DNA of 45,257 nt from Acidobacteriaceae bacterium (GTDB lineage: Bacteria > Acidobacteriota > Terriglobia > Terriglobales > Acidobacteriaceae), in the NCBI GenBank assembly GCA_003135475.1, contig PLBW01000133.1, positions 1 through 45,257 on the forward strand, read 5' to 3'. Positions 5,459-15,280 of the stretch are shown here, piece after piece. A program made the position numbers and the translations under genes. Positions within the stretch are counted from its first letter, which is position 1; each line of letters opens with the position of its first letter. The notes under the pieces are model-generated. The model worked only from the letters and a program-made list of their open reading frames with translations. It ran no database searches and had not been told where the DNA came from.

Positions 5459-5508
5459 CAAAATAGTGTACTCGTCAAATAATGTACTCGTCCTCTCATC
5501 CCAAATTA
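5459..5508. repeat. left half of an older IS-end-like repeat array
   Basis: Two related units, CAAAATAGTGTACTCGTC (5459-5476) and CAAATAATGTACTCGTC (5476-5492), precede CCCAAATTA at 5500-5508. The third unit is split by the transposon and resumes at 8845. Such short tandem repeats resemble the multiple transposase-binding sites at ends of IS21-type elements; that assignment is an inference. Confidence 0.5.
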
Positions 5509-5536
5509 GGGTAATTATATACTTACCGTACCGCGA
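5509..5536. repeat. left terminal inverted repeat of the transposon
   Basis: Begins GGGTAATTATATACTT, perfectly inverted at 8823-8838. The next 12 bases match the right end at 8 positions. Confidence 0.9.
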
Positions 5537-5598
5537 TTTGAGTGTCAGAATCAAAGGGCCGTGACAGGGCCTTAGGCTTAGGCATAGGGAGTCGGGCG

Positions 5599-5820
5599 TC
5601 AAACCTTACGCTTGACAATCTCGCCCGTCTCGACGATTTGGAATGTATCGTCGTCAATACGATTGAGATGGTTTCCATTAAGCAATCTGAACTTAATGAT
5701 GGTCGGAATCCACGACTTCTCTCCAGCTAGCGTTCTTATTCCTTGCCAGTGCTGGACAGCGAGAGCGTGCAGTTCTTTCCCGTCATCCATACAAACAACA
5801 AAGCGCTCGGAGGTCGTCAT
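5599..5820 (-). CDS. small hypothetical protein, transposon cargo
   Basis: A 73-residue protein starting at ATG 5820 with GAGGG roughly nine bases upstream. It reads as two short segments: an N-terminal strand-rich part (ERFVVCMDDG) and a C-terminal part (FRLLNGNHLNRIDDDTFQIV, then ETGE) that resembles widespread small uncharacterised proteins ending in an IDDDTFEIV-TGE-like motif. It has no membrane segment or signal peptide. Its start codon shares two bases with that of the plus-strand gene at 5819, so the two are divergent with no intergenic space. It lies 62 bases inside the left end of the transposon. Function unknown. Confidence 0.6.
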   Translation of the reverse strand: MTTSERFVVCMDDGKELHALAVQHWQGIRTLAGEKSWIPTIIKFRLLNGNHLNRIDDDTFQIVETGEIVKRKV

Positions 5821-6034
5821 GGAGTTGCCCTCAATTGCTACTGGAGTCGAAGTTATTCACGAAGGATTGCTGCGAGCCACCTTGAATGATATTGGTTGGT
5901 ACGCCAAGAAAAACAACCTTTCCGCAGATCAAGTTAGACGTTTCTTTGAGGCTGGCATCGCAACCAACCATTGTCTTATTGGGTCGCGAGAGGATTCTAA
6001 TCCCAAACCACAACCGGACGCCCATCTAGACTAA
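5819..6034 (+). CDS. small hypothetical protein, transposon cargo
   Basis: A 71-residue frame starting at ATG 5819, with GGAGG at 5809-5813 at good spacing. The N-terminal two thirds look folded and helical (IHEGLLRATLNDIGWYAKKN, then LSADQVRRFFEAG); the tail is polar and Pro-rich. I recognise no family. The ribosome-binding site lies inside the first codons of the divergent minus-strand gene, so the two genes can only be transcribed from promoters located inside each other. One of the two starts may therefore be wrong. Confidence 0.5.
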   Translation: MELPSIATGVEVIHEGLLRATLNDIGWYAKKNNLSADQVRRFFEAGIATNHCLIGSREDSNPKPQPDAHLD

Positions 6035-6124
6035 TTTCTGCGCGATTGTCTCATCCAAGATTTCCCGCACGGTCAGCGGCACAATGACCCGCGTATCCAT
6101 CAGCGACGAGGGCTTTTCGGTCAT
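6026..6124 (-). pseudogene. possible DNA-methyltransferase remnant (32 codons)
   Basis: A 32-residue frame beginning MTEKPSSLMDTRVI and ending LTVREILDETIAQKLV. The first part resembles the start of phage- or island-type DNA methyltransferases (MDTRVIYCGDN-like) and the last part resembles the C-terminus of such enzymes, as if the catalytic middle had been deleted. There is no clear ribosome-binding site. This is from memory of family patterns only and needs a database search. Confidence 0.3.
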
Positions 6125-6165
6125 TTGGCGATCATACAGTACTGAAAAAGGAGCCAGTCATGCAA

Positions 6166-6732
6166 TCAAAGAGAATAAAGGGGTCCCCCAAGTGGAGGTG
6201 TGAAGTCTCCGACCTCGTTAGCTATCCCGCAGGCTACCGCGTCGTCCGCCGTGAAATTAAGATTGCGGTGCTCGAATTCTGCCCATCTTTCTGGGCTAAG
6301 GGTGACGTGCTCACGGAGAATTGCTTTGACCCTATTGTCGTCCATGACCATAGCTTCGCCCAGAGACTTAACAACGGCGGCGGGAACCTGAGGGAGTTCG
6401 TGCATGAAGATGTGGTGAACCATGAAAGTCGCATGTTTACTGACTATGCGCTTCTTCCCTCCGAGATACGCGATTACGCCCATCGACGAAATGATGCCGG
6501 AATTGTAGAGAACGAGGTCAATGGGCAGCGTTCTAAAGAAGTTGTATAGGGCTATTCCGTGTCCGGCTATGCCCCCGTTGCATTGGAACAGCAAGTGGAC
6601 CCTAGCGCGGGCTTTTACCGCTGGAGCCAAGCCACGGAATATCCTTTGCAGTGATTCCTCATCCGTATCACCGGCGAAGACTATGTACATATCCAACTGA
6701 TGACTGCTGGGTTGCGGTGCGTTGGTAGTCAT
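6166..6732 (-). CDS. ClpP-like serine protease homologue (ClpP/crotonase fold), transposon cargo
   Basis: A 188-residue protein with the ClpP-type core. It has the oxyanion loop region CNGGIAGHGIALYNFFRTLP (from 51), nucleophile-elbow motif SSMG with Ser83, catalytic-His motif MVHH (His106/107) and the C-terminal element LNFTADDAVACGIANEV. The acidic third residue of ClpP, normally in a (D/E)RD-F-like stretch, aligns with Asn or Leu here (RNLNF, 156-160), so the triad may be incomplete or the acid supplied elsewhere. There is no propeptide or signal peptide. The ATG at 6732 overlaps the stop of the upstream DUF3800 gene (ATGA), pointing to translational coupling. Short ClpP-like proteases also occur in phage head modules, but no capsid or portal gene is present. 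Substrate and partner unknown. Confidence 0.8.
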   Translation of the reverse strand: MTTNAPQPSSHQLDMYIVFAGDTDEESLQRIFRGLAPAVKARARVHLLFQCNGGIAGHGIALYNFFRTLPIDLVLYNSGIISSMGVIAYLGGKKRIVSKHATFMVHHIFMHELPQVPAAVVKSLGEAMVMDDNRVKAILREHVTLSPERWAEFEHRNLNFTADDAVACGIANEVGDFTPPLGGPLYSL

Positions 6733-7487
6733 GGTGCCTCATGGTCACTTATTCCCTTGAAAATTAGCGGCTCAATTCGCTTGTAAAGTTCCTCGGTGTC
6801 CTTACACTTGACGAGATGCCGCGAGATTAGCAGAGTGCAGACATCTGCCAGTTGAATCCCCACAGAGAACTTTGAGTCTCCGAAATACATGTCATCATGG
6901 ATGTGGGCCAACACGCCACGGGTTGGAGGACTAGAGCGAACAAACTGCCGATAATGGCGGAACCCTTTCTGCATTGCATACTTTGTCTTTTGATCTGTGG
7001 TGTTATCGGCAACAAGCACACCAAAGCCACCATTTTGCTGGAACCAATCTTCGACCGCCCGTGCGCATCTGCGAAACGCCACATCTGCCTCATTGGCGCT
7101 TCCGAAGTCGGTATCCTGTAGCTTTTCTATGTCCACAGCGCCATACACGATTGAAATGTTCCAGTTTTCGATAACGCGCACTCCCTCTCCGAGTAGGTGG
7201 AATCTTTCATCTTTGGGGATTTCCTTGAATGGTTTATTGCCGTGTAGCAGATCGCAAGCGTGAAATTCGCAAGTCTCACGGATTTCTTCGGGGATATGCT
7301 CATACACGAGATAGGCAAGCTCTTGCTCGATGGAAGAGAAAAACTCATCAGCGACGATGACGGCTCCCATGACCTGAAACTGCCGATCTAGAATTTTGTC
7401 CTGCTTCGAATCGTCAATGTAAACGATATGCACTGGGCTTCGATCACGCGAACTCAGTAATTGCTCGACTTGACTTTTGCAAACCAC
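6729..7487 (-). CDS. DUF3800-domain protein, transposon cargo
   Basis: A 252-residue protein matching the DUF3800 pattern: YIDDS near the N-terminus (23-27), EFHACDLL (74-81), a central acidic segment with VADNTTDQK (159-167), and the C-terminal block FGDSKFSVGIQLADVC (202-217). The spaced conserved acidic residues suggest a nuclease- or transposase-like metal-binding site; the family has no settled biochemical function that I can name. The start is GTG at 7487 with GGAG about nine bases upstream. It overlaps the ClpP-like gene by four bases, so the two products probably work together. DUF3800 genes are often seen near mobile elements and defence loci, which is context only. Confidence 0.82.
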   Translation of the reverse strand: MVCKSQVEQLLSSRDRSPVHIVYIDDSKQDKILDRQFQVMGAVIVADEFFSSIEQELAYLVYEHIPEEIRETCEFHACDLLHGNKPFKEIPKDERFHLLGEGVRVIENWNISIVYGAVDIEKLQDTDFGSANEADVAFRRCARAVEDWFQQNGGFGVLVADNTTDQKTKYAMQKGFRHYRQFVRSSPPTRGVLAHIHDDMYFGDSKFSVGIQLADVCTLLISRHLVKCKDTEELYKRIEPLIFKGISDHEAP

Positions 7488-7624
7488 GGCGCGATACTCC
7501 GATCTAGGCGCTCTTGCGTCAGATCGAGTATTGCGTCAGAACGGTTATGTCGGGTCGCCCTGGGTCCTCTGCCAAGAAAACTGAAGGGTGACACGCGCAA
7601 TTATCCAACGGATGATTATACGGC

Positions 7625-7789
7625 ATGAAAGCACACGCAGAAATGATCGAAGGGCCGGAAGCGGCAACGCGGTTCACCGAGGCACTAAAGACGGTGCTTT
7701 CGGTGCCTAAGAGTTCGATCCCCAATCCCTTTCATAAATCCAAAGTTTCCAGCACAAAAAGAAAAAAGCCAGCAACCCGCAAGGGCTAA
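7625..7789 (+). CDS. small basic protein, transposon cargo
   Basis: A 54-residue frame starting at ATG 7625. The N-terminal half ([20 protein letters not shown]) resembles a widespread family of very short uncharacterised proteins with an EGPEA-RF-A--K-VL-V core; the C-terminal half is basic and rich in Lys, Arg and Ser ([13 protein letters not shown]). The stop codon falls inside the terminator hairpin of the convergent transposase gene, so the end of this gene doubles as the terminator. No strong ribosome-binding site is visible. Family recognition is from memory and moderate. Confidence 0.55.
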
Positions 7790-7797
7790 CTGGCTTT
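7761..7797 (-). terminator. rho-independent terminator of the transposase gene
   Basis: Arms AAAGCCAG (7765-7772) and CTGGCTTT (7790-7797) with an inner CCC-gcaa-GGG stem. On the minus strand the hairpin is followed by CTTTTTTC-type T-rich DNA (7751-7767), directly after the transposase stop at 7821. It overlaps the last codons of the small plus-strand gene. Confidence 0.75.
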
Positions 7798-7820
7798 CCG
7801 TTTTCCTCTTCTCTGTCGCT

Positions 7821-8789
7821 TTAGTTGAACGCCGCCGTGTCCGACTCCCGATCCTTACCAGTGAGATGCTTCAATGTTAGACGCTTCCCTGTGATCTGCG
7901 AGAGTGCCAGTTTGAAGCGGTCAAAATCGTTCATTGGATTGTCCGGTGTGGCGCGGTTATTGAAGCGGAAGCTCTGTTCATCCAGATACCGGAACAAATG
8001 AAACGGCTCCACGCTTACATAAGTCCCGTTGATTCCGCGCTTCAGCAAAGACCAGAAGTTCTCAAGCCCGTTGGTGTGGACCCGACCGTCAACGTACTGG
8101 ACTGCGTGATCTACAACCAAGTGCGCGTAGTCGCCCTCCAGCCCTTCGTATGAGAGCAGGGCATCGGTGTAGAGCGCCGCGCCAGCTTCGACATGCTTTC
8201 TGACTTCCGCTTGCAACGCCGACTTCTTGCGGCTCGGCACTACCATTGTGCGAACTTTTCCACCACGCTCCAAGATGCCCATGACGGCGGTCTTGTCCTT
8301 TGTGCCTGTTCCTGTGATGCGGCGCTTGCGCTCGCTGATGTGCATGTTCCGCGCCTTGCCGCCGATAAAGGTTTCGTCCGCCTCGACTTCGCCAGAGAGC
8401 AAACCAAATCCGCCGTCGGTCAATGCGAAGCGCAAACGGTGCGCCATGAACCATGCAGTCTTCTGCGTTACGCCGAGATCGCGGGCCAGTTCGCATGAAC
8501 TGATTCCGTTCTTGCAATTCACAACGAGCCACAGAGCGGGCAGCCACTTGTCTAGGCCGAGCGGAGAGTCCTCAAACACGGTTCCGGTCTTCAGCGAAAA
8601 CTTGGGCATCGGGTGCCCGGTGTAGCACTTCCACACGCGGTTCTTGGCGAGGTATGTTACTTTCTCGGAGCCGCAATGCGGACACTTCACCTTGCCATCA
8701 GGCCACCGAAGCTCTACCATCACCCTGTAGCAGTTGGCGAAATCCTGAAAGTGGATGATCGCTTCTTGGAGTGTTTTTATGCTTTCCAT
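7821..8789 (-). CDS. IS1595-family (ISXO2-like) transposase
   Basis: A 322-residue transposase of normal length. An N-terminal zinc ribbon (CPHCGS at 36-41 and a second Cys near 55, then the GTVF-DS-L-L-KW stretch) is followed by a helix-turn-helix-like segment (SSCELARDLGVTQKTAWFMA) and the DDE-type catalytic domain: VEADETFIGGK (Asp138), YTDA (Asp209) and HTNGLENFWSLLKRG (Asn240/Glu243). It begins at ATG 8789, 21 bases inside the 28-bp right inverted repeat, and ends in a rho-independent terminator. All motifs are intact, so the element may still be active. It presumably acts on the two terminal inverted repeats given here. Confidence 0.95.
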   Translation of the reverse strand: MESIKTLQEAIIHFQDFANCYRVMVELRWPDGKVKCPHCGSEKVTYLAKNRVWKCYTGHPMPKFSLKTGTVFEDSPLGLDKWLPALWLVVNCKNGISSCELARDLGVTQKTAWFMAHRLRFALTDGGFGLLSGEVEADETFIGGKARNMHISERKRRITGTGTKDKTAVMGILERGGKVRTMVVPSRKKSALQAEVRKHVEAGAALYTDALLSYEGLEGDYAHLVVDHAVQYVDGRVHTNGLENFWSLLKRGINGTYVSVEPFHLFRYLDEQSFRFNNRATPDNPMNDFDRFKLALSQITGKRLTLKHLTGKDRESDTAAFN

Positions 8790-8810
8790 GCTCTAAATAT
8801 AGGCTTCTTG

Positions 8811-8838
8811 TCGTGGTATGTCAAGTATATAATTACCC
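8811..8838. repeat. right terminal inverted repeat of the transposon
   Basis: Inverse of the left end. AAGTATATAATTACCC at 8823-8838 is a perfect 16-bp match; the inner 12 bases match at 8 positions. AAATTA follows immediately at 8839-8844. Confidence 0.9.
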
Positions 8839-8844
8839 AAATTA

Positions 8845-8881
8845 GAAGTGTCCCCCTCTTCTCCAAAATAGAAATGTCCCC
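8845..8881. repeat. right half of the older IS-end-like repeat array
   Basis: Completes the unit CAAATTAGAAGTGTCCCC, interrupted by the transposon, and is followed by CAAAATAGAAATGTCCCC at 8864-8881. With the two units at 5459-5492 this makes four related repeats of about 18 bp if the transposon is removed. No partner end or transposase for the older element was found in the window. Confidence 0.5.
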
Positions 8882-14797: not shown

Positions 14798-15280
14798 AAA
14801 GGCAGTTGTCAGTAGCCAGTAGCCAGTTGTCAGTTTGGGTTGGGACGATTTGTCCGCATGTGTTCTTTGAGATTTGGGTTTGGCCGATGTGCCATTAACG
14901 GTTCTTTGGAATTTTGGTCCGCGTTACGATGCTCCAGTCCCGCGAAGCGGGACGGAAGAAGATAGCCCAGCGCTTCAGCGCTGGGTGGGCGGGATAAAGG
15001 AACCGGAGTCCCCCGGGGACGGCAGAGAAGCAGGTCTCTCGACTCGGCGCTAAAGCGCCTCGCTCGAGATGACAAACGCGGCGAAGGAAGTTTTTTCGCA
15101 AGGATAGGGGTCCTTCGACTCCGGCGCGCAAAAGCGGCGCGCCTGCGCTCAGGATGACAGACCAATTCAGTTCATCCTCAAGCGAAAAGCGAAGGACGAA
15201 AAACGAATAGCGAATGGCGAAGTTTACTGACGGCTGACAGCCGATAGCTGACAGCTTCGAGGCGAGAGCCGAGAGTTCAC
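14798..15280. repeat. repeat-rich gap between nuoK and nuoL
   Basis: No gene is visible. The gap holds CAGTTGTCAGT-type iterations (14802-14834); perfect hairpins GTCCCGC-gaa-GCGGGAC (14937-14953) and CCCAGCGC-ttca-GCGCTGGG (14966-14985); two more copies of the REP-like unit (15035-15074 and 15111-15159, the second with an enlarged hairpin GGCGCGC..GCGCGCC-like); and GCTGACAGC-type iterations (15229-15256). Confidence 0.8.

Follow-up and report, generated by a model that had tools for sequence, protein, structure and literature searches.

The window analysed here, a stretch of 45,257 nucleotides (contig PLBW01000133.1 of an Acidobacteriaceae bacterium), contains a complete transposon of the IS1595 family, whose extent and cargo are defined by inverted ends, an 8-bp duplication and an empty site in a related genome (Table 1). 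Its transposase gene lies at one end and faces a small accessory ORF, and the interior carries two passengers, a DUF3800 gene and a gene for a ClpP-fold protein, followed by the scar of a third. Near the opposite end, two ORFs (5599-5820 on the minus strand and 5819-6034 on the plus strand) are divergent with overlapping start codons, and neither has a recognised family. The first of these was absent from the other elements with which it was compared, an early subset.

Table 1. Features of the transposon and its target site, in window coordinates.
Feature	Position	Strand	Basis
Target-site duplication, left copy CAAATTAG	5502..5509	.	exact match to 8838-8845; single in G003 empty site
Whole transposon, 3,328 bp	5510..8837	.	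inverted ends, 8-bp duplication, empty site
Cargo-side terminal inverted repeat	5510..5537	+	23/28 match with the other end, first 15 perfect; lacks the transposase-side TTGAC
73-aa ORF, may or may not be a gene	5599..5820	-	no Pfam, NCBIfam or PADLOC match
In-frame deletion scar of a DNA methyltransferase, 32 codons	6026..6124	-	matches both termini of the 493-aa methyltransferase in L026
ClpP-fold serine protease-like passenger, 188 aa	6166..6732	-	Pfam CLP_protease 2.4e-13, PDB Clp proteases, alignments
DUF3800 passenger, 252 aa	6729..7487	-	Pfam DUF3800 2.1e-9; 47% identical homologue in another IS1595 element
Conserved small accessory ORF, 54 aa, K/R-rich tail	7625..7789	+	convergent with transposase; family in 45/46 elements; codon-position test
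IS1595-family transposase, 322 aa	7821..8789	-	Pfam DDE_Tnp_IS1595 (PF12762) 2.9e-42, Zn_ribbon_IS1595 (PF12760) 8.6e-10, NCBIfam NF033547 4.8e-53
Transposase-side terminal inverted repeat	8810..8837	-	TTGACA + 17 bp + TATATT; sequence, TTGAC counts in 46 elements
Target-site duplication, right copy CAAATTAG	8838..8845	.	matches left copy; single in empty site

Both transposon ends begin with a perfect 15-bp inverted repeat, GGTAATTATATACTT, and are bordered by exact copies of the 8-bp target duplication. This end pair is the longest inverted repeat found in the window (arms of 33 nt, 85%). No other inverted pair of 10 nt or more in the 45 kb is accompanied by an exact 8-bp duplication, a combination that arose in 0 of 40 Markov-resampled sequences. 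Searching the whole genome of this bacterium with the end pattern at up to 3 mismatches gave two sites only, both of them the transposon ends; the reversed pattern gave 0 matches at the same tolerance, and no second copy of the exact ends was found in this genome. The joined flanks align to a congeneric genome (G003:C155, L025) in which CAAATTAG is present once and the sequence lacks exactly 5510-8837 plus one CAAATTAG. Small length differences beside this empty site leave the junction unaffected. Thus, the insertion took place after the two lineages split, or the transposon was precisely lost in G003.

A preliminary description, made from the window sequence, had proposed that the ends delimit one cargo unit and had suggested the empty-site alignment as a check; the inverted repeats, the duplication and the G003 sequence bear this out. 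The end sequence that it gave, GGGTAATTATATACTT at 5509 with the inverse ending at 8838, is present, as is the 24 of 28 match over that span, but these borders are 1 bp too wide. We prefer 5510-8837 because it fits the 8-bp rule of IS1595, the outer G belonging to the duplication. Similarly, the AAATTA reported on both sides exists only as the core of CAAATTAG, and a duplication of 6 bp was rejected, since the 8-bp reading fits and matches the family rule.

In the right flank, positions 8841-8881 hold two imperfect copies of AATAGAAATGTCCCC, a motif that recurs in three other genomes (G003, G059 and G013). The motif resembles an end from a different IS family, and the transposon inserted inside it. 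A 16-bp tandem repeat is found in the left flank (5461-5492). Elsewhere in the window, an Acido-Lenti-1 RNA (Rfam RF01687, 49.8 bits; 14936-14985, minus strand) lies downstream of a nuo-type gene cluster; together with the relatives of the window, this RNA points to Acidobacteriota as the source.

The transposase is intact, without internal stop, as had been described. It combines a DDE_Tnp_IS1595 catalytic domain with an N-terminal zinc ribbon, which to our knowledge is found in all groups of the IS1595 family except IS1016. Together with the inverted repeats, which start with GG, and the 8-bp duplication, the two domains confirm the IS1595-type identity first proposed, and the presence of non-transposition genes (ClpP-like and DUF3800) between the ends makes the transposon a transporter IS (tIS). 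The TTGACA-17 bp-TATATT of the transposase-side repeat can be read as an inward-facing promoter of the transposase gene. Among the 46 related elements delimited below, a TTGAC box resembling a -35 sequence is present inside the repeat at 44/46 transposase-side ends versus 19/46 cargo-side ends, where it is often altered to TTGCC or TTGGC.

The transposon as such is not new, as passenger-carrying IS1595 elements are already described under the name tIS (Siguier, Gagnevin & Chandler 2009, cited in PMC3129680 and PMC8101967). As related in these citing papers, tIS share with the window element a transposase with zinc ribbon and DDE domain, GG ends, 8-bp duplications and passengers unrelated to transposition. 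In contrast, neither the small ORF conserved in the window's group nor that group's exchange of defence-type cargo on a single backbone was found in the searchable literature, outside of which the 2009 tIS paper lies. ISApl4/Tn7560 (IS1016 group, PMC12561309) belongs to the same family and makes A/T-rich 8-bp duplications as well, but ISApl4 is a 712-bp IS without cargo, and it mobilises genes only when two copies form a pseudo-compound transposon. What is new here is a set of 46 delimited relatives with a conserved small ORF, cargo swapping, recurrent cargo and recurrent ClpP passengers.

These relatives were drawn from 120 genomes of the same family, in which 82 strong transposase matches were obtained. 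In the loci examined, matching ends delimited 46 elements. The 8-bp duplication is exact in 39 of these and has one mismatch in 2, while the other 5 were accepted by their ends alone. Most of the relatives are diverged. Their sizes range from 1.7 to 5.9 kb, which means that all 46 carry DNA beyond the transposase, and their target duplications reveal a palindromic preference near CWAATTWG. Window element and relatives form part of a large group of elements from soil bacteria and follow the same three-module plan: a constant block of approximately 1.1-1.3 kb, comprising terminal repeat, transposase and small accessory ORF, then a variable cargo, then a short constant opposite end (about 20-60 bp).

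By profile search, the family of the small basic ORF is present in 45/46 delimited elements, mostly convergent with the transposase. This count is partly circular, as 13 of these elements supplied the seed sequences of the profile, and independent support comes from a codon-position test and a flank control. Between sister small ORFs, mismatches number 117, 116 and 273 at codon positions 1, 2 and 3, indicating that the ORF is translated and constrained. In 315 kb of flanking DNA the profile detected 1 locus, itself adjoining an IS1595-type end. At the scale of whole genomes, a convergent small ORF lies at most 600 bp downstream of the transposase in 64/82 cases. Neither Pfam nor NCBIfam matched the 54-aa ORF of the window, and for the family they gave no member-wide match; weak matches turned up sporadically, in one or two members (best 4.6e-4). 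The protein could be a nucleic-acid-binding accessory or a regulator of transposition, a tentative assignment that falls a little short of probable. This near-universal, unnamed protein might represent a hitherto missing factor for transposition or regulation in the IS1595 family.

Some small ORFs were found in other configurations. In-frame fusions join the small ORF to the C-terminal end of another protein, a DUF3800 protein at L089 (7215-8288, plus strand) and a Dam-type methylase at L027 (5635-6705, minus strand). A remnant in genome G036 (L083, 2809-3858), made of one IS1595-type end, a DUF3800 gene and a small ORF without transposase, lies about 9 kb from the ClpP-carrying element of that genome.

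Exchange of the cargo is best seen in a sibling of the window element, L026 in genome G002, the transposase of which is 96% identical at the protein level, whereas its cargo is different. Homology between the two is confined to element bases 1-1286 and the last 61, and between these blocks L026 carries a RelA/SpoT gene, a methyltransferase that has an Mrr-type end, and further genes. The same homology boundaries were observed in other sister element pairs. The methyltransferase scar of the window element keeps the first 14 and the last ~18 codons of the gene, and this in-frame fusion of 32 codons indicates that an ancestor of the window element carried the methyltransferase. On the transposase tree, cargo class is scattered about as widely as shuffled labels (17 changes versus 18.9). 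The cargo is freely swapped on a constant backbone.

The cargo of the window had been called unusual. This is true of the ClpP-fold gene, which is rare, but to carry cargo is usual in this group, all 46 delimited relatives being longer than their transposase would require, and DUF3800 is the commonest recognised cargo. Among the 46 elements, DUF3800 genes recur in 10, with the reading frame kept, genes for Rx4H HEPN-like proteins in 8 and RelA/SpoT in 3; among the single cases are type IIG restriction enzymes, AbiU/AIPR, GmrSD and a SocA-like antitoxin. In the 120 genomes, 12/43 DUF3800 genes lie at most 4 kb from one of the group's transposases, versus 0.06 expected. The HEPN-like proteins are so named solely from their invariant Rx4H, and a PDB profile search with their alignment returned nothing useful. 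PADLOC tallies did not cleanly separate cargo from flanks, flanking ORFs also matching many ABC/AAA-type models, so that the term defence cargo is drawn from the named families and not from a statistic. On the strength of these families, the cargo may have a defence function.

The DUF3800 and ClpP-like genes of the window are on the same strand, overlap by 4 bp and probably form an operon. The ClpP-like protein shares with ClpP and with phage ClpP-like head maturation proteases the Clp protease fold and the conserved Ser and His motifs, but is at most 25-28% identical to them and has no phage context. Its Ser (SMG-type motif) and His (FMxH) are kept in the window, G036 and Rhizobium homologues, whereas by manual reading of the alignment the Asp position is F/L/H in these three, and the third catalytic residue is not evident. 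DUF3800 proteins have known links with Cas12a2 and with candidate structured RNAs, and an RNase H fold has been predicted for them (PMC10910872; Rfam DUF3800 motifs). The window protein has the DUF3800 domain in common with these proteins, but its partner in the element is a ClpP-fold protein, and neither a CRISPR nor an Rfam DUF3800 RNA was found in the element. A PDB profile search with the DUF3800 alignment gave nothing useful, a plasmid search with the protein gave no match, and PADLOC had no match for either passenger or for the pair. AlphaFold models were of low confidence (pLDDT 39 for DUF3800, 46 for the ClpP-like protein).

Close relatives of the ClpP-like protein are rare, and the nearest are inside IS1595 elements. 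A genome-wide scan with the window protein alone found no relative; with an alignment including the G036 copy, three ClpP-like relatives were found. The G036 gene lies in an IS1595 element of another group, with ends GGTAATTATCCCTTGACAGTAGGTA and an exact duplication TGCATCCA, and that of a Rhizobium MAG also lies in an IS1595 element of another group, with exact ends and the duplication ATTATTTT. In a Bryobacterales MAG, a truncated fourth ClpP-like gene follows a small-ORF copy, and a DUF3800 gene lies within 2 kb. The partners of the ClpP passengers in G036 and the Rhizobium MAG differ from those in the window, hence ClpP and DUF3800 need not form one system. Thus, IS1595 elements acquired the ClpP fold at least three times, with different partners.

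Taken together, 5510-8837 is very probably a complete, presumably once-mobile IS1595-family transporter IS, inserted at CAAATTAG, the cargo of which has been exchanged. The transposase would be transcribed from a promoter whose -35 sits in its own terminal repeat, bind both repeats and cut an AT-rich palindromic target (~CWAATTWG) with an 8-bp stagger, the whole unit being moved. Cargo would be replaced via recombination between the two constant blocks, and the window element would have lost its methyltransferase and carry the DUF3800-ClpP pair instead. This pair may be a small anti-phage or abortive module, for which we see nearly an even chance, in which DUF3800 would act as a nuclease of RNase H fold and the ClpP-fold protein as a protease effector or regulator, paying for the upkeep of the element.

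Rather than serving the host, the passengers could serve the element, the ClpP-fold protein, the DUF3800 protein or both adjusting the transposase level or processing transposition intermediates. The ClpP-like gene is indeed directly downstream of the transposase gene and on the same strand in G036 (4 bp) and in the Rhizobium MAG (45 bp), and the fold predicted for DUF3800 (PMC10910872) is the fold class of DDE transposases. However, most elements of the group lack both passengers and are nevertheless flanked by exact duplications, and cargo class is not linked to transposase phylogeny, which makes such a role unlikely. Less likely still, the cargo could be host DNA caught randomly between two ends, without selected function, as ORFs without recognised family in about half of the elements and the decay of the window methyltransferase would suggest. 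Against random capture, the cargo matches only 36 Pfam families versus 179 for flanking ORFs, comparable in number and mostly housekeeping, and DUF3800, HEPN-like and RelA/SpoT genes recur, the DUF3800 frame being preserved. Finally, that an IS1595 merely stands beside unrelated genes with a chance repeat at 5509 would be the natural reading only without the left end, found no support, runs against the exact inverted end and duplication never met in the resampled sequences, and is ruled out by the empty site.

Within the reading of a transporter IS with exchanged cargo, it is possible, if rather on the doubtful side, that this large IS1595 group, probably of Acidobacteriota, is a gene-capture platform. 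It would consist of a constant transposase, an undescribed small basic protein that may serve transposition or cargo exchange, and a slot that has taken up, time and again, genes of anti-phage or toxin type (DUF3800, HEPN-like, RelA/SpoT, restriction-modification, ClpP-fold proteases), some of them likely undescribed defence systems. Because its ends fix the set of genes that move as one, each element can directly serve as a unit for testing, and if the cargo is mostly defence, delimiting more elements would be a direct route to small defence systems.

At the L026 locus, a second IS1595-type end (6941-6965) adjoins the duplication of the sibling element, so that two elements share one CAAATTAG target.
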